This document shows positions 5,921-18,328 of a DNA stretch of 64,000 nt, piece by piece; position 1 is the stretch's first letter, and every line of letters starts with the position of its first letter. This stretch comes from Desulfovibrio piger. Its GTDB lineage: Bacteria; Desulfobacterota; Desulfovibrionia; Desulfovibrionales; Desulfovibrionaceae. The notes beneath the pieces are model-generated. The model worked only from the letters and a program-made list of their open reading frames with translations, ran no database searches and was not told where the DNA came from. The position numbers were made by a program, and so were the translations under genes. The DNA lies in NCBI RefSeq assembly GCF_900116045.1, contig NZ_LT630450.1, positions 1,245,001 through 1,309,000 on the forward strand, given 5' to 3'.

Positions 5921-7237
5921 TTACTTACTGCCCCTGCCGGAAGTTTCGGGCGCCCACAAATGGCACACGATACCACCGACGAGCAACGCGCCGACACACA
6001 TCCAGAGGGAGGCATAGATCCCCCAGGCATCACTGATAACCGGAAGGAGGAATGTACCGCCGCCGGCCCCGATACGACTTACGGCAACAGTCAGGCCCAC
6101 GCCAGATGCGCGAAGTTCCGTGGGAAAAAGCTCGGGGGGATACGCGAATTCAAGAACGATGGACATGGCCAGTACCAGAGCCAGCGCCGCCAGCAGGATC
6201 ATGGCCAGAGTGCCCGGCATGGTCTGCCAGAGAATCATAACAGTCAGGATAGCCGCCGCACCATAAAACGTTGAGAGCAGGTAAAAACGCCGGGTGATCT
6301 TATCAATGATCCAGGTGCCGATCAGCACCCCTGCCATGGTGAAGACGTTATACAGAATACCGGATACATGCGGGTTACTGACATTGAGCTGTTCCAGCAC
6401 GATGGTCAGGAAGATGCCGATGGCAAAGAAAGGGACGACCTGGGCAGCAAAAAATACACCGGAAACAAGCGTGTTGTAGCGTAATTCCGGGCTGAACAAA
6501 CGGCACCACGATCCGGAAGCCTTCTGCTCTTCCTGCAAATCAGGAAGGCAGTAGCCCTTGCCGAGCCAGGTATGGATCAACTCCAGAGCTTCGGTTTCAC
6601 GTCCCTGGCGGGCCAGCCAGCTGGGAGATTCGGGCGTTCCGAAACGATAGAGAAAAGCGGCCAGTCCCGGTACTGCGGAAGAGATGATGATCCAGCGCCA
6701 GCCGTCATCTCCCATACTCTCGGCCCCAAGGCTGCCTACGAAGGACCCCACGATATAGGACATGACGAAACCCAGGGTCCACATGACCAGGTGCCAGCTC
6801 AGGATGTGGGCGCGCCTCTTGGCCGGGGTCCATTCGCTCAGCAGAGGGATGCCGCTGGTGTAGTCGGCGCCCACGGTCATACCCAGCAGGAAGCGGACCA
6901 CGGCCAGCCAGACGGGATCCGTGATGAAGAACTGCCACAGGGACAGGCCCACGGACAGAGCCATCAGGATGAGGAAGGGTTTGCGACGGCCGATGCGGTC
7001 GGCAATGGGGCCCATGAGCAGGCTGCCGAACAGGATGCCCAGCATGGCACCGGCACCGATGAGGCCCATCCAGTAACTGTTCAGCCCCAACGGGCCCTGG
7101 GCATAACTGAGCGCGATGCCTACGATGCCCAGGATGTAGCCGTCAGTGATCACACCAAGGAAAGCGCCGGTGGCAACTTTCTTGTGAATGGCGTGCGGTG
7201 TGGCTTCCTCGAAGCTGATAGGTGTGGCGAATGACAT
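5921..7237 (-). CDS. MFS transporter (organic acid/sugar-porter type)
   Basis: A 438-residue protein with twelve predicted membrane segments. The classic MFS loop motif GPIADRIGRRKP follows helix 2, and GADYTSGIPLLSEW in helix 4-5 resembles metabolite:H+ symporters of the aromatic/organic acid and sugar-porter groups. GGAGGGAACC precedes the ATG. It is transcribed away from the oxidoreductase operon, and both promoters have the same TACCGT palindrome, so the substrate probably belongs to the same pathway, as a nutrient taken up or an acid product released. The exact substrate cannot be told from sequence. Confidence 0.85.
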   Translation of the reverse strand: MSFATPISFEEATPHAIHKKVATGAFLGVITDGYILGIVGIALSYAQGPLGLNSYWMGLIGAGAMLGILFGSLLMGPIADRIGRRKPFLILMALSVGLSLWQFFITDPVWLAVVRFLLGMTVGADYTSGIPLLSEWTPAKRRAHILSWHLVMWTLGFVMSYIVGSFVGSLGAESMGDDGWRWIIISSAVPGLAAFLYRFGTPESPSWLARQGRETEALELIHTWLGKGYCLPDLQEEQKASGSWCRLFSPELRYNTLVSGVFFAAQVVPFFAIGIFLTIVLEQLNVSNPHVSGILYNVFTMAGVLIGTWIIDKITRRFYLLSTFYGAAAILTVMILWQTMPGTLAMILLAALALVLAMSIVLEFAYPPELFPTELRASGVGLTVAVSRIGAGGGTFLLPVISDAWGIYASLWMCVGALLVGGIVCHLWAPETSGRGSK

Positions 7238-7313
7238 GGTTCCCTCCGGTCGGGTTGAAGTGAGGGCCCGGCGTGAGCAGCTCCAGGCCGGGAGAGGGTA
7301 ATGGCTCTGTTTT

Positions 7314-7338
7314 TATAATACCGTATTACGGTATTATA
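7314..7338. promoter_or_regulatory. Operator palindrome at the MFS promoter
   Basis: Two perfect 12-base arms, TATAATACCGTA and TACGGTATTATA, around one central T. It lies just downstream of the MFS promoter -10, where a bound repressor would block transcription. The same half-site TACCGT recurs at 7470-7508 beside the opposite promoter. The likely ligand-responsive regulator is the IclR protein at 16710, but that link is inferred. Confidence 0.7.
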
Positions 7339-7349
7339 TACCATATCAA

Positions 7350-7378
7350 ACGATATTTAGAAAAAAATTTCCTGTCAA
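7350..7378 (-). promoter_or_regulatory. Promoter of the MFS gene
   Basis: On the minus strand TTGACA (7373-7378), 17 bases, then TATCGT (7350-7355). The region 7310-7510 is AT-rich and holds the back-to-back promoters of the MFS gene and the oxidoreductase operon. Confidence 0.55.
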
Positions 7379-7446
7379 TGGTTAGGAAAATTTTTCCTTC
7401 CCAAAAAATTCTTAAAAATTTTTTTTCATAAAATCCCGTAAACCCG

Positions 7447-7475
7447 TTGACACATAAGCTCTAACTGCGTACCGT
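7447..7475 (+). promoter_or_regulatory. Promoter of the 2-oxoacid oxidoreductase operon
   Basis: TTGACA (7447-7452), 17 bases, then TACCGT (7470-7475), which is itself an operator half-site. A consensus TATAAT at 7489-7494 is an alternative -10 but lacks a well placed -35. The leader to the first start codon at 7601 is about 120 bases and shows no other structure. Confidence 0.5.
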
Positions 7476-7508
7476 CTAAAAAACGGTATATAATACCGTA
7501 ATACGGTA
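7470..7508. promoter_or_regulatory. Operator palindromes at the oxidoreductase operon promoter
   Basis: TACCGT-AAT-ACGGTA (7494-7508) has the same half-sites and 3-base spacing as the palindrome at 7314-7338. A second pair, TACCGT (7470-7475) and ACGGTA (7483-7488), has 7-base spacing and overlaps the -10. Both lie where a repressor would block the plus-strand promoter. Confidence 0.65.
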
Positions 7509-7600
7509 CAAACAAAACGACCAATCAGGACTTCTGAGTTTTTCAGGAAAGAATGCAACAACCTTCATCGAGGCCAGGACCTCACAGCACCGAGGTGGAT

Positions 7601-8671
7601 ATGTCGCAGGAAACCTTGTTCTTGAAAAATACGGAAACATTTGCCGAAAGCATGGCGCGTTGCGGTGTCAAATATCACTTCGCCTATCCGATCACCCCGG
7701 CAACGGACGTGATGAAGCGCACCGCAGTCATCCTGCCCAAATACGGCGGCAAAATGATGCAGATGGAGAGCGAACTGGCTGTTTCCAGCGCTCTGGCCGG
7801 CGCGGCCTGCACCGGCAAACTGGCGGCTACATCCAGCTCAGGTCCCGGCATGTCCCTGATGCAGGAAGCCATCTCCTTCATGGCCGGCGCCGAACTGCCC
7901 TGCATCATGCTGGACTCCATGCGTGTGGGCCCTGGTGATGGCGATATCGTAGGGGCACAGAGCAACTACTATATGGCTACCCGCGGCGGTGGGCACGGTG
8001 ACTACCATATCCCTGTGCTGGCCCCTGCCTCCGGCCAGGAAATCGTGGATCTCATGCCGCGCGGCATCCGCCTGGCCTATGCATACCGCACGCCGGTGCT
8101 CTTCGTTATTGACGGCGTGACAGCTCAGACCACGGAATCCGCCATCCTTCCCGCGTACCATGACTACGCTGCCGAATTCGATACGTCCGACTGGGCCTAT
8201 ACCGGCACGCAGGACCACCCCAAACGCGCCCTGATCACCGGCAGCTACTCGCACGAAGACGGCTACCAGATGAATGAACGCCTGCGTAAAAAGTGTGAGA
8301 TCATCACAGAAAACGAGCAGCTGTGGGAAGAGGACAGCGTCGACGACGCGGAACTGGTGGTCGTGGCTTTCGGCATCCATGGCCGTATGTGCAAGGATCT
8401 GGTGCGCAAACTGCGTACGGAAGGGAAAAAGGTCGGCAGCATCCGTCCCATCAGCCTGTGGCCTTTCCCGGTCAGGGCGTTCGACAAGCTCCCTGCCAGT
8501 GTGAAGCAGATTCTGGTAGTGGAGATGAATCTGGGCCAGATGGTGGACGATGTGCGTCTCGCCGTGAACGGCCGTGTACCCGTGCACTTTTTCGGCAAGA
8601 CCGGTGGCGACATGCCCATGTACACGCTCAATGAAATGATCGCCAAAACCAACAGCCTGCTGGGAGAGTAA
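7601..8671 (+). CDS. 2-oxoacid:ferredoxin oxidoreductase, alpha subunit (VOR/KOR type)
   Basis: A 356-residue subunit of the four-subunit 2-oxoacid:ferredoxin oxidoreductases, which convert a 2-oxoacid plus CoA to acyl-CoA and CO2 with reduction of ferredoxin. YPITPATDVM near the N-terminus and the ATSSSGPGMSLMQE region are typical of the alpha chain; the C-terminal third is the transketolase-C-like domain. I chose ATG 7601 (MSQETLFLKN) because GAGGTGG precedes it; an upstream ATG at 7553 has no site. It is the first gene of the alpha-beta-gamma-delta set. The natural 2-oxoacid is unknown; valine-, 2-oxoglutarate- and aromatic-type enzymes look alike at this level. Confidence 0.9.
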   Translation: MSQETLFLKNTETFAESMARCGVKYHFAYPITPATDVMKRTAVILPKYGGKMMQMESELAVSSALAGAACTGKLAATSSSGPGMSLMQEAISFMAGAELPCIMLDSMRVGPGDGDIVGAQSNYYMATRGGGHGDYHIPVLAPASGQEIVDLMPRGIRLAYAYRTPVLFVIDGVTAQTTESAILPAYHDYAAEFDTSDWAYTGTQDHPKRALITGSYSHEDGYQMNERLRKKCEIITENEQLWEEDSVDDAELVVVAFGIHGRMCKDLVRKLRTEGKKVGSIRPISLWPFPVRAFDKLPASVKQILVVEMNLGQMVDDVRLAVNGRVPVHFFGKTGGDMPMYTLNEMIAKTNSLLGE

Positions 8672-8675
8672 GCGG

Positions 8676-9437
8676 ATGCAGAATCTTAGCAAGAATTACG
8701 GCCAGACCCTGAACCTGGATAAACTCACCAGCTACTGTCCCGGCTGCGGTCACGGCGTTGTAACCCGCCTGGTGGCGGAAGCCATCGAAGAGCTGGGCAT
8801 CCGCCAGCGTGCGATAGCCATCGTGGGCATCGGTTGCGGTGGTTTTTCCCATCACTACATGGACATCGATGCCATCGAAGCCACCCATGGCCGCGCACCT
8901 TCCTTCGCCGTGGGATACAAGCTGGCCCGTCCCGACAACATCGTCTTCACCTACGCCGGCGACGGCGACACCAGCGCCATCGGCATCGGCGACCTTCTCC
9001 ATGCGGCCAACAAGGGCATGCCCATCACCACCATCATGATCAACAATACCGTGTTCGGTATGACCGGCGGGCAGATGTCCCCCACCACGCTCGAAGGCCA
9101 GGTGACCACCACTACGCCCAAGGGACGTGACGTGACCTGGCAGGGCTATCCCCTGCTGGTTCCCGAGATGATGCGCGCCATGCCCGGTGTGAAATTCCTG
9201 GCACGCGAGAGCGTGGCCACTGCCAAACATATTATGCACGCGAAGAAAAGCATCAGAAAGGCCTTCGAATGTCAGGTTCGCGGTCTTGGTTACTCCTTCG
9301 TGGAAATGATCGTCCCCTGTCCCACCGGCCTCAAGAAATCCGTACGCGACTCCTATGACTGGTGTGCCAACCAGATGAACGGTTATTTCCAGCCCCAAAT
9401 CTTCAAGGACGAAATGGAGCAGAACAATGCTGACTAA
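8676..9437 (+). CDS. 2-oxoacid:ferredoxin oxidoreductase, beta (TPP-binding) subunit
   Basis: A 253-residue subunit. CPGCGHGVV near residue 21 and the thiamine-diphosphate motif GDGDTSAIG followed by INNTVFGMTGGQMSPTT identify the catalytic beta chain of VOR/KOR-type complexes. It starts 4 bases after the alpha gene, and its last 11 bases overlap the gamma gene, indicating coupled translation. Confidence 0.93.
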   Translation: MQNLSKNYGQTLNLDKLTSYCPGCGHGVVTRLVAEAIEELGIRQRAIAIVGIGCGGFSHHYMDIDAIEATHGRAPSFAVGYKLARPDNIVFTYAGDGDTSAIGIGDLLHAANKGMPITTIMINNTVFGMTGGQMSPTTLEGQVTTTTPKGRDVTWQGYPLLVPEMMRAMPGVKFLARESVATAKHIMHAKKSIRKAFECQVRGLGYSFVEMIVPCPTGLKKSVRDSYDWCANQMNGYFQPQIFKDEMEQNNAD

Positions 9438-9972
9438 ATGCATGTTTTCCGGTTCTGGCGGTCAGGGTTCCGCTCTTATGGCCAAGCTTGTCTGCCTGGC
9501 CTCCATCAAGGAAGGGCTCAAGGTCGTCATGACCCAGACCTACGGTATCGAACAGCGCGGTGGCGACTCCACGGCCTATGTGATCGTTTCCGATGGCCCC
9601 ATCGGCAGCCCTATCGTAGAAAAGGATGCCACTGTGGCCGTCGCCCTGAGCAAATCCATCTATGACTTGTGCTTCGAAGGCACCGCTCCCGGTGGCACCC
9701 TGTTTTGCAACACCTCGCTGGTGGAAGAGCCCCGGGCCCCTGAGGGTTTCGTCCAGGTGGGCCTGCCTGTGTCCGATATGGCCATGGAAGCCGGTTCCGT
9801 CCGCTCTGCCAATATGGTCATGCTGGGAGCTGTCCTGGCCAGGACAGGCCTGCTCAAGCTGGAGACCGTCGAACAGGTCCTCACGGAGACCATGGGCGCC
9901 AAAAAGCCTGCCCTGCTGGAAATGAATATCAAGGCACTGCACACCGGCTATGAAGCGGGCCTGAAGGGGTAA
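9427..9972 (+). CDS. 2-oxoacid:ferredoxin oxidoreductase, gamma subunit
   Basis: A 181-residue gamma chain. It shows the N-terminal FSGSGGQGSALMAKL motif and YGIEQRGGDSTAYV, both characteristic of the family. It starts inside the beta gene and ends 3 bases before the ferredoxin-like delta gene, so the four subunits are tightly coupled. It probably contributes to CoA binding and assembly. Confidence 0.92.
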   Translation: MLTKCMFSGSGGQGSALMAKLVCLASIKEGLKVVMTQTYGIEQRGGDSTAYVIVSDGPIGSPIVEKDATVAVALSKSIYDLCFEGTAPGGTLFCNTSLVEEPRAPEGFVQVGLPVSDMAMEAGSVRSANMVMLGAVLARTGLLKLETVEQVLTETMGAKKPALLEMNIKALHTGYEAGLKG

Positions 9973-10194: not shown

Positions 10195-10275
10195 CTCCTC
10201 AGGAAACGGCAAGATGTACCGGGTCACGCTGCCATCGGGGGCAGCGTGACTGCAAGAGCTCCCGGGAGGAATGCA

Positions 10276-12429
10276 ATGTCTGACCTTGTCCCTCTCTTTC
10301 GTCCCAAAAGCGTCGCTCTTATCGGCGCTTCGTCCGATACGAAGAAATACGGCTACTGGACAGCCAAGAGCCTGATAGACAACAAGTTCCAGGGTGACAT
10401 CTATCTGGTCTCCCGATCCGGCGGTGAAATCCTCGGTCACCCTACCTATCCCGACATCCTTTCCGTGCCCGGTGAAGTGGACCTGGCCATCGTGGCCATT
10501 GCTCCCAGGCATATAGTCCCCATCATCGAGCAGTGTGCCGAAAAGGGCGTGAAGACCGCCATCGTCGTCTCCACGGGCTTTGGCGAGACCGGTCCCGAGG
10601 GCAAGGAGATCGAACGCCAGATGCTGGAAGTGGCCCGCAAGGGCAATCTGCGCATCATGGGCCCCAACTGCATGGGGATGTACAGTTCTGCCGTGAGCCT
10701 CAATGCGAGCATCATCGATCTGGCCCCCGGCCCCATGAGCCTCGTGCTGCAAAGCGGCAACTTTGGTATCGACATCAACTTCAATGCCAAAAGCCGCAAC
10801 CTCGGTTACAGCTGCTGGGCCACCATCGGCAATCAGATGGATATCCGCTTCAATGACTTCGTCAGCTATATCGGACAGGACGAAAATACCAAGGTACTGC
10901 TGCTGTACATGGAAGGCCTGCGTGTGGAAGATGAGGAAGATGGCCGCAAGTTCCTGAAGGCCGCCCAGAAGACCTCGCTCAAGACGCCCATCGCCGCCAT
11001 CAAGATCGGCCGCAGCGCCGCCGGTGCCCGTGCCGCCGCTTCCCACACCGGCTCCCTGGCCGGCAGTGAAAAAATCTTCGACGCGGCCCTGGAGCAGGCG
11101 GGCGTCGTTCGTGTGGACAGTCCCAACGAACTGCTCGATACCGCCGAGACTTTCGCCAAGTGCAAGCCCGCCATCGGCAGACGCATGGCCGTGCTCACCG
11201 ACGGCGGCGGTCACGGCGTCATGGCTACCGACTTCTGCGAGCGATTCAAGCTGGAAGCCCCGGTGCTGTCCCAGGCCACCCAGGAAAAGCTGCGCGCCAT
11301 CCTGCGTCCGCACTGCCCCATCAAAAATCCTGTGGACCTGGCCGGCACGCCCGAAGCCGACATGTGGGTCTTCGACCGGTGCCTGGAGGTCCTGCTGGAC
11401 GACCCCGATGTGGATGGTGTGATCATCGTGGGCCTTTATGGCGGCTATGCCGATCTTTCCGAAGAATTCCGCGTTATGGAGATGGACGTGGCCAAGAGCA
11501 TGGCTGCCCGCGTGCAGAAGGCCAACAAGCCTGTGGTCATGCATTCCATCTACCAGCCACAGCAGCCTGAATGCCTGCGTTACCTGAGCGACAACGGCAT
11601 CCCGGTATTCGGTTCCGTGGACGCTGCCGTACGCTCCATGGGTACGCTGGTGAGTTATGCCGACCGCCGCAAGGCCCTGGAAGAAGAACTGGCCGGTGCC
11701 AGTGTGGAACTGCCCGCCGACCGCCACGAAAAAGTTCGTGCCATCCTCGATTCCGTGCGCGCCCAGAACCGCTGCAACCTGGTCGAGACAGAAGCCCGCG
11801 ACATTTTCAAAGCCTATGGCCTGAACCTGGCTCCGCACTACCTGGCGCGCAACGCCGACGAAGCGGCAGAGCTGTGGCAGAAGATAGGCGGCAAGGCCGT
11901 CATGAAGATCGTATCCCCGGATATCCTGCACAAGACCGATGCCGGCGGTGTGGCCCTGAACATCGAATCCGCCGGGAGCGCCCGTGAAGCCTTTGAGCGC
12001 CTGGTCAGGAACGGCCTGGCCTACAAGCCTGACGCGGACATCTTCGGCGTGCTGATGACCCCCATGCTGCCCGGCGGCGTGGAATGCATCATTGGCGCCA
12101 GCCATGACGTGACCTTCGGCCCCACGGTCATGTTCGGTCTGGGCGGCATCTTCGTGGAAGTGCTCAAGGACGTGTCCTTCCGCGTGGCCCCCATCAACAT
12201 GCCCTCCGCCCGCAAGATGGTGCGTGAAATCCGCGGTCTGGCCATGCTGCAGGGTGCGCGCGGCGCCAAGCCCTGCGATCTGGAAGCCCTGGCCGAGGCC
12301 GTTTGTCTGGTCTCCCACCTGGTGGATGAGCTGCGTGATGTCGCCGAAGTCGACCTCAACCCCGTTTTTGCCTGGGAAAAAGGACTGGCCGTGGCCGATG
12401 CCCGCATCGTCCTGCATCCCGTGAAGTAG
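10276..12429 (+). CDS. ADP-forming acyl-CoA synthetase (fused alpha-beta)
   Basis: A 717-residue NDP-forming acyl-CoA synthetase that converts acyl-CoA, ADP and phosphate to a free acid, CoA and ATP. Order: CoA-binding domain (residues about 5-130, starting FRPKSVALIGASSD), two ligase-CoA domains (a GGGHGV motif with His near residue 313, in the part of the protein that holds the phosphohistidine in active family members), and a C-terminal ATP-grasp domain from about residue 500 (KIVSPDILHKTDAGGV). GGGAGGA precedes ATG 10276. Directly after the oxidoreductase genes, it would harvest acyl-CoA as ATP by substrate-level phosphorylation, as in peptide-fermenting anaerobes. Confidence 0.9.
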   Translation: MSDLVPLFRPKSVALIGASSDTKKYGYWTAKSLIDNKFQGDIYLVSRSGGEILGHPTYPDILSVPGEVDLAIVAIAPRHIVPIIEQCAEKGVKTAIVVSTGFGETGPEGKEIERQMLEVARKGNLRIMGPNCMGMYSSAVSLNASIIDLAPGPMSLVLQSGNFGIDINFNAKSRNLGYSCWATIGNQMDIRFNDFVSYIGQDENTKVLLLYMEGLRVEDEEDGRKFLKAAQKTSLKTPIAAIKIGRSAAGARAAASHTGSLAGSEKIFDAALEQAGVVRVDSPNELLDTAETFAKCKPAIGRRMAVLTDGGGHGVMATDFCERFKLEAPVLSQATQEKLRAILRPHCPIKNPVDLAGTPEADMWVFDRCLEVLLDDPDVDGVIIVGLYGGYADLSEEFRVMEMDVAKSMAARVQKANKPVVMHSIYQPQQPECLRYLSDNGIPVFGSVDAAVRSMGTLVSYADRRKALEEELAGASVELPADRHEKVRAILDSVRAQNRCNLVETEARDIFKAYGLNLAPHYLARNADEAAELWQKIGGKAVMKIVSPDILHKTDAGGVALNIESAGSAREAFERLVRNGLAYKPDADIFGVLMTPMLPGGVECIIGASHDVTFGPTVMFGLGGIFVEVLKDVSFRVAPINMPSARKMVREIRGLAMLQGARGAKPCDLEALAEAVCLVSHLVDELRDVAEVDLNPVFAWEKGLAVADARIVLHPVK

Positions 12430-12509: not shown

Positions 12510-13832
12510 ATGCGTGAAGTGAAGCGTTTCCCCACCACCACTGGTCAGAGCTGGCTTGAGATGTCCTCTTTCAAAGATCATCTGTTCAAGAGCCATGACA
12601 AGATCGCCAAGGAATATGACTATATCGTCGTAGGCGCCGGTTACGGCGGATACGGCTGCGCCAGCCGTCTGGCTGAACTGCAGCCCAGTGCCAGAATCGC
12701 TGTCTTCGAAGCCATCAAGATCGGCAACGGCGACAGCGGCAAGAATGCCGGTTTCATCATCGACGTGCCCCATAATTTCGGTGACCAGGGCAATTCCAAT
12801 TTTGAAGACAACTTCATGTACTATAAGCTCAACACCTTCATCATCGGCCGGATGCGCAAGGCCATCGAAGATTCCGGCATCAAGGTGGACTGGGATCCCT
12901 GCGGCAAATATCTGTGCTGCTCCGAGACCAAGAGCTTCAAGCTCATCGATACCGAAGTCGAAGAGCTCGAGCACATGAACGTCAAGTATGAGATCTATGA
13001 AGGCGAAGTCCTGGCCAAGCGTCTGGGCACCCGTTACTACAAAAAGGCCCTCTACACCCCCGGGACCCTGCTGGTGAACCCTGCCGACGTGCTGCGCGGA
13101 CTGTTCACCGTGCTGCCCGAAAATGTTGACGTGTTCGAAGAGTGCCCCGTTATGAGCATTGAGGAAGGCGCCCGTGCCCGCGTGAAACTGCTCAACGGCA
13201 AGGAACTGACGGCCAAGAACGTCGTCGTCACCGGTGGCCCCTTCATCGAGGAATTCGGCATTGTGAAGAACACGTTCTGCCCCGTGCTTTCTTACGGCGC
13301 CTTCACCCGCCAGCTCAACGAAGACGAGCTCATCTACTTCAAGGACGTCAAGCCCTGGGGCTGCACCGCGGGACATCCCGCCGGCACCACCGTCCGCTTC
13401 ACCTGCGACAACCGTATCTTCGTACGGAACGGTTTCAGCTACGCCACGCATCGCACCACCTCCTTCCAGCGCATCCGCCGGGCCGTTCCCAAGCTGCGCC
13501 GGGCCTTTGAAAACCGTTTCCCCGAGATCAAGCATGTCAACTTCGAATACCTTTACGGCGGCATGATCAACATGACCATGAACTTCCGGCCGCTCATGAT
13601 CCAAAAGCATCCCAGCGTGTACGCCTCGGCCAGCGGCGAAGGTGCCGGCGTGGCCAAGACCTGCCTGATGGGCCACTATGTGGCCGAATGGATCAACGGC
13701 ATCGACAGCGAGGAGCTGCGCTTCCTGCGCCGTATCGCCACCCCGAGCCACCTGCCGCCGGAACCCCTGCCTACCATCGGCGCCACCGCCCGCCTGATGT
13801 GGGAGGAGTTCAACGCCAAAAGCGAAATCTAG
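12510..13832 (+). CDS. FAD-dependent amino acid/amine dehydrogenase (DAO family)
   Basis: A 440-residue flavoprotein. The dinucleotide motif VVGAGYGGYGCASRL begins near residue 35, followed by GDSGKNAGF, a DAO-family flavin-contact region. These enzymes oxidise primary or secondary amines or amino acids to imines. In this likely strict anaerobe the electron acceptor is probably not oxygen. AGGAAGAGAG precedes the ATG. Between an acyl-CoA synthetase and a RidA imine deaminase, it most plausibly feeds a 2-oxoacid into the oxidoreductase. Related families (gamma-glutamylputrescine oxidase, taurine dehydrogenase-like) cannot be separated by eye. Confidence 0.8.
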   Translation: MREVKRFPTTTGQSWLEMSSFKDHLFKSHDKIAKEYDYIVVGAGYGGYGCASRLAELQPSARIAVFEAIKIGNGDSGKNAGFIIDVPHNFGDQGNSNFEDNFMYYKLNTFIIGRMRKAIEDSGIKVDWDPCGKYLCCSETKSFKLIDTEVEELEHMNVKYEIYEGEVLAKRLGTRYYKKALYTPGTLLVNPADVLRGLFTVLPENVDVFEECPVMSIEEGARARVKLLNGKELTAKNVVVTGGPFIEEFGIVKNTFCPVLSYGAFTRQLNEDELIYFKDVKPWGCTAGHPAGTTVRFTCDNRIFVRNGFSYATHRTTSFQRIRRAVPKLRRAFENRFPEIKHVNFEYLYGGMINMTMNFRPLMIQKHPSVYASASGEGAGVAKTCLMGHYVAEWINGIDSEELRFLRRIATPSHLPPEPLPTIGATARLMWEEFNAKSEI

Positions 13833-13925: not shown

Positions 13926-14303
13926 ATGGAATTTGTGCATGCTCCCAAGGCTTGCGCCGCTGTCGGCCCCTATTCCCACGCCGTCAAGGCCGGTAACACC
14001 TATTACCTTTCCGGCCAGGTGCCTTTCCATCCCGTGACGGGTGAAGTGGTGGGAAAAGACATGGCCGAACAGGCCACCCAGACCCTCACCAACATGAAAG
14101 CGGTGCTGGATGCCTGCGGGCTGGCCATCGCCCATATCGCCAAAGTGACCGTATTCATCACGGACATGCACGACTTCGATGCCTTCAACACAGTGTATGC
14201 CGATTTCATGGGTGAGCACCGGCCTGCCCGTGTCTGTGTCGAAGTCAGCAATATAGCGCATGGCTGCCTGCTGGAACTCGACTGTGTGTGCGTCGTGGAA
14301 TAA
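13926..14303 (+). CDS. ridA: RidA family enamine/imine deaminase (first copy)
   Basis: A 125-residue Rid protein. The conserved sites are visible: GPYSHAVKAG, YYLSGQVPF, the substrate-carboxylate-binding Arg in RPARVCVEV, and the Glu of the C-terminal ELDCVCVVE strand. Rid proteins hydrolyse reactive imines to 2-oxoacids and ammonia. It follows the DAO-family flavoprotein, whose direct product is an imine, so a pathway role fits better than general housekeeping. GGAGGTCATC precedes the ATG. A second, distinct RidA lies at 58603. Confidence 0.9.
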   Translation: MEFVHAPKACAAVGPYSHAVKAGNTYYLSGQVPFHPVTGEVVGKDMAEQATQTLTNMKAVLDACGLAIAHIAKVTVFITDMHDFDAFNTVYADFMGEHRPARVCVEVSNIAHGCLLELDCVCVVE

Positions 14304-14444: not shown

Positions 14445-14470
14445 AGGGGGAGCATCAGCTCCCCCTTTTT
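14445..14470 (+). terminator. Terminator or attenuator between ridA and the BCCT gene
   Basis: AGGGGGAGC, loop ATCA, GCTCCCCCT, then TTTT. It divides the catabolic block: oxidoreductase to RidA upstream, and transporter, UbiX and IclR downstream. I found no clear promoter between it and the ATG at 14523, so partial read-through is likely. Confidence 0.8.
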
Positions 14471-14522: not shown

Positions 14523-16058
14523 ATGAGTGAATCACCATATAGCGTAGACAAACTGACTTTTGCCATAGGCTACAGTATCATATTCCTTTTTGTACTTATC
14601 GCTGTTATCTTTCCTGCGAATTTCACTGCAATGATGGAGGTCGTCCAAACTTTTCTGCTCAATAATACCGGTTGGCTCACAGTCTTCCTTTCCGTATGCA
14701 TCGTCGTTTTCACGCTCTGCATCATCGCTTCTCCCATTGGTTCCATCAGGATCGGCGGCCGCCATGCCAAGCCCGACTTCAGCCTGTGGCGCTGGTTTGC
14801 CATTTCTCTGTGTGCCGGTATCGGTATCGGCATCCTGTTCTGGGGCATAGGTGAACCCATCTACCATCTGATGCAGCCCCCCACCGAGAACCTTGGTATT
14901 GCCCCCGGCTCTCACCAGGCCGCTGTTTTTGCCATCTCGCAGAGTATCATGCACTGGAGCGTGGCCCAGTACTGCCTCTACTCTATCTGTGGCGTGACCT
15001 TCGCGGTCATGTGCTTCAACAACAACCGTCCCCTCTCCATCATCGACTGTTTCGCCGTCATCGTGCCTTCCAGGTATTTTGAGCTCAGCCGCTGCGTGGT
15101 GCATACCATCTGCCTGTTCTCCCTGTGCTTCGCTGTCATCAGCAGCATGGGCTCCCTGATCATGATGGTCTCCAGCATGCTCTCCCATCTGACGGGCCTG
15201 CCGCGTTCCTTTATGATGGACACGCTTATCTGCGTCGCCGGTACCGGCCTGTTCGTCATCTCGGCCATCAGCGGCCTGCGCCGGGGCATGTCTTTCCTCT
15301 CGCAACAGACCACGCGCCTTTTCATCTTCCTGATGTTCTTCGTCTTCCTTGTGGGCCCCACTTCCTTCATCCTGACCATGGGCACGGAAGTCTTCGGCTA
15401 TACGCTGAGCTCCTTTTTCCACAACAGCTCGCTTATGAGCACCAAGTTCATGGACAACCCCTGGTCCAACTCCTGGCTGGTGGTCTACATGGCCTTTTTC
15501 TTTGGGTATGCGCCGCCCATCGGCCTGTTCCTGGCTCGTCTCGGCAAAGGCCGCACCGTGCGCCAATTCCTGCTGATGAACATCTTCGCGCCCACCATTT
15601 TCGTATATTTCTGGATCAACACTTTTGGCAGCGTTGCCATCTACTTTCAGTGGAACAACGTCATGGACGTCTGGGGCTTCGTGCAAAGCCACGGACTGGA
15701 ATCCACCGTGGTCGCCGTTCTCCAGACCTTCCCCCTGAGTGGGGTACTGATCTTCCTGTTCATCATCTGTACCATGACCTCTTTCGCCACCCTGGCAGAT
15801 CCCATGACCACGGTGCTGGCAACCTTATCCACCAAGGGACTGTCCATCAATGAAGAGGCTCCCCGACGGCTGAAGGCCGTCTGGGGCATCACTGCCGGAG
15901 TGATGGCCCTGTTGCTGATCTCGACGACAGGCCTTTCCGGTCTGCGCGGCATGGCGGTTTTCAGCGGTTTGTTCATGATGTTCATCACGGCGGGCATCTG
16001 TGTATGCATTGTCAAAATCGGCATGGAAATCCTGGAGCGCCGGCGGCTGGCACAATAA
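14523..16058 (+). CDS. BCCT family transporter
   Basis: A 511-residue protein with twelve predicted membrane segments. The family signature GIGIGILFWGIGEPIYHL is present near residues 97-114, and a conserved Trp/Gly-rich region follows (WSVAQYCLYS). BCCT carriers import betaine, carnitine, choline, proline or related zwitterions using sodium or proton gradients, or by exchange. AAGGAGATTTTC precedes the ATG. Its place after the dehydrogenase and RidA genes suggests that it imports the amine or amino acid substrate. Which substrate-site residues are present was not resolved. Confidence 0.88.
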   Translation: MSESPYSVDKLTFAIGYSIIFLFVLIAVIFPANFTAMMEVVQTFLLNNTGWLTVFLSVCIVVFTLCIIASPIGSIRIGGRHAKPDFSLWRWFAISLCAGIGIGILFWGIGEPIYHLMQPPTENLGIAPGSHQAAVFAISQSIMHWSVAQYCLYSICGVTFAVMCFNNNRPLSIIDCFAVIVPSRYFELSRCVVHTICLFSLCFAVISSMGSLIMMVSSMLSHLTGLPRSFMMDTLICVAGTGLFVISAISGLRRGMSFLSQQTTRLFIFLMFFVFLVGPTSFILTMGTEVFGYTLSSFFHNSSLMSTKFMDNPWSNSWLVVYMAFFFGYAPPIGLFLARLGKGRTVRQFLLMNIFAPTIFVYFWINTFGSVAIYFQWNNVMDVWGFVQSHGLESTVVAVLQTFPLSGVLIFLFIICTMTSFATLADPMTTVLATLSTKGLSINEEAPRRLKAVWGITAGVMALLLISTTGLSGLRGMAVFSGLFMMFITAGICVCIVKIGMEILERRRLAQ

Positions 16059-16079: not shown

Positions 16080-16646
16080 ATGAAAAGATTGATCGTTGGC
16101 GTCAGCGGGGCCAGCGCCATGCCGCTGACAGCGTGCTTGCTGCAGAACCTCCATTATCTGGCCGACGTGGAAGTTCATCTTATAGTATCACCTGGGGCAG
16201 AACGCGTCTTGCAGCATGAATGCCATTGCAAGGCGGATTCCTTCCGAGCTTATGCCCATACCGTCTATGATGCGGCCGATATGGCGGCAGGCCCTTCCAG
16301 TGGATCCTGGCACCATGACGGCATGATCATTTGTCCATGTTCCATGAGCTCGCTGGCATCCATTGCCAGTGGTGCCGGCATGAATTTGCTCCATCGGGCT
16401 GCGGATGTCACACTCAAGGAAGGAAGAAAGCTCATCATCGTCCCTCGGGAAACCCCTCTCAATGTCATCCATATTGAAAATATGCACAGGCTGGCCATGG
16501 CCGGGGCCGTACTCATGCCTTTCATGCCCGCATTCTATGTTTTACCACAAAATATAGAAGACATACTGGTGCATTTCTGTGGGAGGATACTCGACCAGAT
16601 GGGCCTGGAGAACGGCCTTGTCAAACGATGGCATAATAACCTATAA
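16080..16646 (+). CDS. ubiX: UbiX-like flavin prenyltransferase
   Basis: A 188-residue protein close to UbiX/Pad1: VGVSGASAMPL at the N-terminus, SGSWHHDGMIICPCSMSSL, and PRETPLNVIHIENM. UbiX attaches a prenyl group to FMN to make the cofactor of UbiD decarboxylases. No ubiD lies in this cluster; the only one in the window is at 34030-35871. AAGGAGCTCGGAC precedes the ATG. It could serve a UbiD elsewhere, or act in the local pathway if the substrate needs decarboxylation. Confidence 0.85.
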   Translation: MKRLIVGVSGASAMPLTACLLQNLHYLADVEVHLIVSPGAERVLQHECHCKADSFRAYAHTVYDAADMAAGPSSGSWHHDGMIICPCSMSSLASIASGAGMNLLHRAADVTLKEGRKLIIVPRETPLNVIHIENMHRLAMAGAVLMPFMPAFYVLPQNIEDILVHFCGRILDQMGLENGLVKRWHNNL

Positions 16647-16709
16647 TTACAAAATAATTTCGATTGTGCTATGTTGCTACCCTGTTGCAGAAGGATCGCA
16701 GGAATCGTT

Positions 16710-17519
16710 ATGGCAGAACAAAAATACTATACTATAAGCAGCCTTGCGAAAACTTTTTCCGTCATTGAACTCATGACACATAAATCCCTCTGGGATCTTC
16801 GAGAGCTGGCAAAAGTCTCAGCCTTACCAAAAGGGACCCTGCAACGCATCTTGCTAACTCTTGAAGAACTAGGCTATGTGCGCCAGGAACATCGTGGTGG
16901 AGCCTATGCGCTGACCTTAAAATTCTTTCAGCTAGGGCGCCGGATCGTAGGCAACAACAATCTTGTTGAACTCGCCCGCCCGCATTGTCGGGAACTGGTC
17001 GGTATCGTCAATGAGACAGTCAACCTTTGCATGGCTTCGGGGAGCGATATGGTCGTTGTCGATCAGCAGATGTCCCGCCACCATCTCCGTCTTGACTCTA
17101 TAATTGGCTCATCTTTTCCAATCTATCCTTCAGCATCAGGAAAAATTTGGCTTGCCTTTCAAAATGAACAGGATGTCATGCGTGTACTTGGCCAGATCTG
17201 CCAAGAAAATCCAAAGATTTCTGCAGAAGACATCACATCCTTCATTGAGGAACTTGCAGATGTCAGGAATGAAGGAATCGCATTTGACTATGAAGAGATT
17301 TTCGAAGGTGTCAGATGTGTTGCATCACCAATATTCGACTATAGTGGAAGCATCGTTGCAACATTAGGGTGTTCTGTACCTACAGTAAGAATAACTAAAG
17401 AACTTTCTTCATTATTGATAAATGAAGTTTGTGATAAAGCAAAATTGATTTCCTCACTTCTTGGAGCTCAGGCGAGAAAATTTCAGAAAACGCACAAGAC
17501 CATGATTGATATATCTTGA
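16710..17519 (+). CDS. IclR family transcriptional regulator
   Basis: A 269-residue regulator with an N-terminal winged helix (residues about 12-75; DLRELAKVSALPKGTLQR is the recognition region) and a C-terminal IclR effector domain. I chose ATG 16710 (MAEQKYYT), which has AGGA upstream, over an in-frame upstream start. The last 300 bases of the gene and the DNA after it are clearly more AT-rich than the neighbours, hinting at separate ancestry. It is the last gene of the block and the best candidate to read the TACCGT palindromes at 7314-7508. Its effector is probably a pathway intermediate. Confidence 0.88.
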   Translation: MAEQKYYTISSLAKTFSVIELMTHKSLWDLRELAKVSALPKGTLQRILLTLEELGYVRQEHRGGAYALTLKFFQLGRRIVGNNNLVELARPHCRELVGIVNETVNLCMASGSDMVVVDQQMSRHHLRLDSIIGSSFPIYPSASGKIWLAFQNEQDVMRVLGQICQENPKISAEDITSFIEELADVRNEGIAFDYEEIFEGVRCVASPIFDYSGSIVATLGCSVPTVRITKELSSLLINEVCDKAKLISSLLGAQARKFQKTHKTMIDIS

Positions 17520-17872: not shown

Positions 17873-18328
17873 CTACCCCTTAAAGGGGTCTTGATATTCG
17901 CGTGATGTCAGCTTGTCTCTTATAATATCGTGGCGTTCCTGATCCTGGATATATTTTTTGATCGTTGCCTCATTAAGCCCCACCGTACTGACATAATATC
18001 CTTCGGCCCCAAATTTTCTGTTGCCGAACTTATACTTAAGGTTTGCGTGCTTATCGAATATCATCAACGAACTTTTCCCTTTCAGGTAGCCCATGAAATT
18101 TGCCACACTGATTTTAGGAGGAATGGACACCAGCATGTGGACATGATCCGGCATCAGATGCCCTTCCAGAATCTCAACCCCTTTATATTTGCAGAGGCAT
18201 TGCAGAATTTCTTTTATACTTTCACGGAGCTGTGCGAAGATTATTTTCCTTCTATATTTTGGAGTAAAGACGATATGATACTTGCACAACCATTTCGCAT
18301 GCGCTAGGCTATGAGCCTTGGTTCCCAT
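17873..18328 (-). CDS. tnpA: IS200-like Y1 transposase TnpA
   Basis: A 151-residue HUH single-strand transposase, full length for the family. The HUH motif is in MPDHVHMLVSIPP near residue 60, and the catalytic Tyr lies in the C-terminal helix (NEATIKKYIQDQE). The frame is intact, so it may be active. The only ribosome site (AAAGGTG) lies inside one arm of a 17-bp inverted repeat just upstream, which would hide it in the mRNA. Confidence 0.93.
   Translation of the reverse strand: MGTKAHSLAHAKWLCKYHIVFTPKYRRKIIFAQLRESIKEILQCLCKYKGVEILEGHLMPDHVHMLVSIPPKISVANFMGYLKGKSSLMIFDKHANLKYKFGNRKFGAEGYYVSTVGLNEATIKKYIQDQERHDIIRDKLTSREYQDPFKG

Follow-up and report, generated by a model that had tools for sequence, protein, structure and literature searches.

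PcaU and PobR act as activators, and their operators, together with that of HmgR, lie in an upstream activator position. The sites of these three regulators are the best known three-box sites of the IclR family: a palindrome is joined by an external direct repeat of a half-site, which likewise makes three boxes, and PcaU needs the third box in order to bind (Suvorova and Gelfand 2021, PMC8222616). In the sections of that paper covered here, three-box sites with boxes of alternating direction were predicted for 32 orthologous groups and 199 transcription factors, and two modes of IclR dimerisation were proposed, with a stated need for experimental validation; a reference title in it calls PcaU and PobR activators. 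Among the literature matches listed, it alone used the term 'three-box'.

The window analyzed here is the whole 64,000-nucleotide stretch of Desulfovibrio piger contig NZ_LT630450.1. Its intergenic region 7238-7600 separates a minus-strand MFS gene from a plus-strand gene cluster and holds a three-box operator at each of two diverging promoters. As judged from sequence, the operator and its predicted IclR regulator are well supported as members of the known three-box IclR class. By eye, the window CCGT-AAT-ACGG fits the group 1 core in the covered sections of PMC8222616 (YCRY-W3-RYGR), whereas the window outer bases ATA/TAT depart from the full group 1 consensus, which has outer GKT/AMC. This mismatch weakens membership without excluding it, because the published consensus averages many groups with listed variants. 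The spacing of the published group 2 (TGRAACA-N1-2-TGTTYCA) is found in the window CGG-N9-CCG, which corresponds to an N1 gap, but the inner bases differ. Unlike the window site, those of PcaU, PobR and HmgR have GTNCG-type half-sites and belong to aromatic pathways (PMC8222616). In the covered sections, positions are given relative to the start codon, whereas the window site is polar with respect to transcription and lies right after the -10 box. The unusual points of the present group are the constant polarity of its sites, their tandem amplification and, in one relative, a fusion of a transporter with IclR_C. Constant polarity, a place right after the -10 box and tandem amplification of the kind seen in genome G052 are not described in the covered sections of PMC8222616, the main text of which has Desulfovibrio once, in a reference title; the group may already be listed in its supplementary tables.

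The gene cluster and its putative regulator

The MFS transporter gene (Sugar_tr / MFS_1) occupies 5921-7237 on the minus strand. The plus-strand cluster opens with KorA-, KorB- and KorC-like genes for the alpha (7601-8671), beta (8676-9437) and gamma (9427-9972) subunits of a 2-oxoacid:acceptor oxidoreductase. The KorA ORF opens at 7553, and 7601 is the likelier start: a second ATG, preceded by GAGGTGG, is found there, close to where homology begins; the homology sets in at about residues 13-19 of the long ORF. Further along the same strand are genes for an ADP-forming acyl-CoA synthetase-like protein (10246-12429), a FAD-dependent oxidoreductase of the DAO family (12510-13832), a RidA-family imine/enamine hydrolase (13926-14303), a BCCT transporter (14523-16058), a UbiX-like flavoprotein (16080-16646) and, as the last gene of the cluster, an IclR-family regulator (16710-17519), the proposed binder of both operators. 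These enzymes presumably oxidize an amino or imino compound, hydrolyze the imine, decarboxylate the 2-oxoacid oxidatively to an acyl-CoA and gain ATP from the latter. The FAD oxidoreductase is 94% identical to that of genome G040 and 93% to that of G029, and no PDB relative of it was found at E 0.001. No named description of this gene cluster was found among the literature matches listed. Just downstream of the IclR gene, the ORF at 17873-18328 has by eye the appearance of an IS200-type transposase.

A strong terminator-like hairpin with a T tail (14445-14466) lies between the RidA and BCCT genes, and a promoter-like TTGTCA-18-TATAAT (16618-16647, 11 of 12 matches) lies where the UbiX-like gene ends, immediately ahead of the IclR gene; the same scan returned 13 terminator-like and 8 promoter-like sites in all, compared with shuffle means of 7.2 and 5.1. 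Because of these two features it is uncertain whether the BCCT gene is co-transcribed with the genes upstream of it, and whether the BCCT, UbiX and IclR genes share the first transcript. The arrangement suggests possible transcription of these three genes at a level of their own, and possibly a separate promoter for the regulator. Pattern and matrix scans found no three-box site before either the hairpin or this promoter.

The regulator ORF opens at 16671, and the shared start, MAEQKYY, is at 16710. The product matched PF09339 (HTH_IclR) in its N-terminal part with 39.7 bits and PF01614 (IclR_C) in its C-terminal part with 119 bits, both over the cut-off, and is the only IclR_C protein in the window genome. 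Its best NCBIfam matches were the KdgR and BhcR models (158.2 and 144.1 bits); since the curated cut-offs are 275 and 350, far above these scores, the protein is neither KdgR nor BhcR. The IclR-family protein TtgV (PDB 2xrn, 2xro) gave a 68.6-bit sequence match over residues 25-245 of the window protein. The recognition-helix residues (PKGTLQR versus PKTTVHR or PKTSVHR) did not help to explain the box sequence, because both kinds of residues accompany CGGTA boxes.

Directional three-box operators at two promoters

All letters of the palindromes reported in an earlier note on this DNA were found in place: TACCGTATTACGGTA at 7319-7333, within a palindrome with 12-base arms (7314-7338), TACCGTAATACGGTA at 7494-7508, and TACCGT-N7-ACGGTA at 7470-7488. 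Comparison with the orthologous regions of G040, G029, G052, G016 and G028 changed their interpretation. The conserved unit is longer than a simple palindrome: it is a 27-bp directional element, RYGGTAY-N3-RTACCGY-N3-RYGGTAY, in which boxes 1, 2 and 3 alternate in direction at 10-bp steps. At both window promoters it takes the form ACGGTAT-N3-ATACCGT-N3-ACGGTAT, which is varied in the relatives. Operator O1 (ACGGTAT-ATA-ATACCGT-AAT-ACGGTAC, 7483-7509, plus strand) precedes the Kor operon. Operator O2 (ATGGTAT-ATA-ATACCGT-AAT-ACGGTAT, 7318-7344, minus strand) precedes the MFS gene and contains the core of the reported palindrome. The two are in opposite orientation, each towards its own gene, and 24 bp are identical. 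A loop of fixed geometry between O1 and O2 was considered and rejected because the separation of the operators varies among the window, G040, G029 and G052.

Two diverging TTGACA promoters had been noticed earlier, and both -35 boxes are present, with 17-bp spacers. The promoter-like sequence for the MFS gene (TTGACA-17-TATCGT, 7350-7378, minus strand; -35 at 7378-7373, -10 TATCGT at 7355-7350) was returned by the consensus promoter scan with 10 of 12 matches. The one for KorA (TTGACA-17-TACCGT, 7447-7475, plus strand; -35 TTGACA at 7447-7452, -10 TACCGT at 7470-7475) was identified by its letters; it fell below the threshold of that scan and is hence absent from its list. Box 1 sets in 7 bp after the -10 box at the Kor promoter and 5 bp after it at the MFS promoter. 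The N7 palindrome, in which the Kor -10 hexamer is the left arm and box 1 the right arm, was not conserved. TACCGT serves as the -10 box in 2 of 18 promoter-operator units, and the 7-bp gap from TACCGT to box 1 occurs in 1 of the 18, for which reasons the N7 palindrome was rejected as a site.

The operator sequence had been called distinct. In a genome-wide search, exact TACCGT-N3-ACGGTA occurred at 2 places in the 2,807,531-bp genome, both in this intergenic region, as against 0 for the reversed pattern used as a control. At up to 2 mismatches there were 3 matches in the window, a count that no shuffle out of 100 attained (mean 0.40). A matrix made from the other genomes scored O1 at 38.7 and O2 at 39.1; after these came window matches at 17.9 and 14.3, which read the same boxes in mirror image. 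Among 60 first-order Markov versions of the window, scores peaked at 15.3. The same sequence had also been offered as a means of finding the regulon. In the window genome, no third three-box site was found at up to 3 mismatches (reversed-pattern control 0 and 1 in two scans), and no wider regulon emerged. An exact N3 match in genome G002 was discarded as evidence; by eye it lies in an apparent coding region, box 1 is absent and the score is 10.9.

Conservation of the site and of the regulator

The comparison set consisted of 101 genomes, namely the window genome and 100 relatives. An IclR ortholog scoring 200 bits or more was found in 8 of them, and the three-box pattern with up to 2 mismatches also in 8; both were present in 7, the site only in 1, the protein only in 1 and neither in 92. 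The reversed pattern gave single matches in 2 of the 101. Fisher's exact test returned p = 3.7e-9 for the co-occurrence, a value inflated by the kinship of the genomes and by the fact that seven of the eight had been seen before the pattern was drawn up, G055 alone being new. Genome G022, which is 78% complete, has the sites and no IclR gene that could be found. In genome G049 an IclR ortholog (57%) was found and the three-box pattern was not; the contig stops 356 bp past the IclR match. The earlier note had made its reading depend on conservation of the site upstream of orthologous operons, and such conservation was found in other Desulfovibrio and, more weakly, in Pseudodesulfovibrio-type genomes.

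A profile scan of genome contigs with the DAO alignment gave 29 loci. Diverged three-box sites precede KorA in L063, L065 and L066 (Pseudodesulfovibrio), L064 (Desulfovibrio) and L069 (Desulfovibrionaceae), the IclR proteins of which are 43-48% identical. Upstream of KorA in L064, L065, L066 and L069, pairs of operators were seen at distances of 71, 75, 73 and 72 bp, respectively; such a spacing, close to seven helical turns, could allow cooperative binding. Outside the phylum, Sutterella wadsworthensis (Betaproteobacteria) has four three-box sites in a related cluster (L073 351-8346), one each before a Pro_racemase gene, the DAO gene and two BCCT genes; this cluster ends in an IclR gene whose product is 39.6% identical. 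No three-box site was found at six DAO loci of Bartonella, Cupriavidus and Carnimonas (L074, L075, L080, L082, L087, L088; best score 6.9), and stricter patterns found nothing at ten other loci of Bartonella, Burkholderiaceae-type or similar origin.

Two relatives have the site before other genes. The UbiX-like gene of G029 is missing from the cluster and sits on another contig (C9), where a TTGACT-17-TAGTCT promoter and a three-box site lie just before its ATG (L105 4620-4646). With a matrix built without G029 the site scores 28.5, and the detached gene is an apparent in-trans member of the regulon. The sites of G055 precede an amine oxidase-RidA-MFS-IclR cluster, with no Kor genes within 40 kb around the IclR gene.

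A catalogue of 33 sites from 14 genomes was assembled from 12 seeds in the gene direction and 21 sites added by matrix (both strands), pattern or eye; its matrix was seeded by 12 of its own sites, and 4 of the 33 (L066_1, L069_2, G055_1 and L064_1) score under the random maximum of 15.3. The catalogue leaves out L068, whose contig begins within KorA, L070 and L071 (top scores 1.7 and 6.4), L072 with one site of 16.3 before KorA, L038/G049, L049/G059 and L051/G071 (best 7.0, 7.4 and 5.4) and the first operator-like place in L063. L061, L062, L067 and L086 duplicate G040, G029, G052 and G022, respectively. A same-subfamily IclR gene was found in 13 of the 14 genomes. Conservation is equal across the three boxes (204, 205 and 205 of 231 positions), and 25 of the 33 sites have AAT as the spacer that joins box 2 to box 3. 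By counts that are descriptive and not blind, all 33 sites share one orientation relative to the downstream gene, and at 18 a recognizable promoter, defined by a TTGAC-type -35 box and a 17- or 18-bp spacer, lies 2-10 bp before box 1. The promoter pattern is absent at the other 15 sites, 8 of which are second, downstream copies.

Proposed regulation of the divergent promoters

We propose, with a probability of roughly 0.78, that the IclR protein (16710-17519) acts on both promoters as a repressor bound from about +1, and that a metabolite of the pathway releases it. The protein would bind both directional copies, 7483-7509 and 7318-7344. The boxes, at 10-bp steps, would therefore lie on one face of the DNA, and since the operators start 5-7 bp after the -10 boxes, they would cover about +1 to +27 of the predicted transcripts. 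In that place the protein would stand in the way of RNA polymerase at each of the two promoters, and this location makes repression relieved by a pathway compound the most likely mode of action. A substrate or intermediate would free the protein, and the transporter and the enzymes would be switched on together. The pathway would comprise uptake by the MFS and BCCT transporters, the FAD oxidase, RidA, the 2-oxoacid:acceptor oxidoreductase and the ADP-forming acyl-CoA synthetase, with an amino or imino acid as the probable substrate. The earlier idea that one regulator, the IclR protein, governs both the MFS gene and the operon gains sequence-based support from the conservation of the site before orthologous operons, the single IclR_C protein and the published three-box architecture.

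Alternatively, the IclR protein might bind the three-box sites and activate, or might activate with ligand and repress without it, in the manner of PcaU and PobR. The poor -10 boxes (TACCGT and TATCGT) would suit such a role, as would the fact that the best-known three-box sites are those of PcaU, PobR and HmgR (PMC8222616). In 18 units, however, the sites start 2-10 bp downstream of the -10 box, where a bound protein is expected to block polymerase and not to recruit it, and activation appears unlikely. It is more doubtful still that another type of regulator reads the site and the IclR gene is merely a neighbor. The motif has the published IclR three-box arrangement (as given in the covered sections of PMC8222616), and an IclR gene is present in 13 of the 14 catalogue genomes, including G055, with no Kor genes nearby, and Sutterella. 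Linkage and co-occurrence are nevertheless indirect evidence, and the sites of G022 without a found IclR gene and the IclR gene of G049 without a site would fit a different regulator.

The boxes could also act as RNA: a hairpin of boxes 1 and 2, or of boxes 2 and 3, would form at the start of the transcript and influence its stability or premature termination. Boxes 1-2 and 2-3 are able to pair, and double changes are still complementary in 22 of 32 cells for boxes 1-2 and 15 of 19 for boxes 2-3. One-sided changes are commoner, though (56 of 231 and 66 of 231 cells, respectively), and the two hairpins are mutually exclusive, yet both box pairs are equally kept, as expected of protein half-sites. 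Second copies of the operator are in some cases a long way downstream of the start. On these grounds a role as RNA seems hardly credible. Repression by the IclR protein is the reading we prefer.

As to the substrate, G016 has a Pro_racemase-family homolog (L045 17613-18662), 77% identical to the Sutterella gene, some 1.4 kb away from its IclR gene; no three-box site was found before the homolog. This association hints at a proline-like substrate, but the Pro_racemase-family scores are under the curated cut-offs for every named activity. The analysis ties an uncharacterized amino-acid-type catabolic cluster of Desulfovibrionaceae, and a related cluster of Sutterella, to one regulator and one operator.

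Amplification and fusion in genome G052

In G052 the promoter-operator unit stands three times in tandem before KorA, at distances of 156 and 153 bp, and a fourth operator accompanies the three (L041 6885-7298). The genome has two complete IclR genes (L041 16813-19356), and an 825-residue ORF (L041 14249-16726) that runs in frame from a BCCT transporter (381.7 bits) into IclR_C (113 bits) with no HTH, a fusion seen in this one metagenome-derived genome only. Since the fusion links the transported and the sensed compound, it suggests that transporter and regulator handle the same or related compounds. It is possibly a transport-coupled sensor, or a product of decay after duplication of the IclR gene.

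A broader reading, which we put forward tentatively and consider rather doubtful, treats TTGACA-17-TANNNT, about 7 bp, box 1, box 2, AAT and box 3 as one polar cassette. An asymmetric IclR assembly that uses both modes of dimerisation simultaneously would read it at the transcription start. The cassette would be shared between phyla together with its regulator and could be amplified as a unit; the G052 fusion would possibly be a membrane-tethered or transport-coupled sensor. The two natural operators, with their 24 identical bp, and the natural variants in which box 1 or box 3 has decayed provide material for the question of two dimerisation modes. In G052, box 3 is decayed in all three tandem units.
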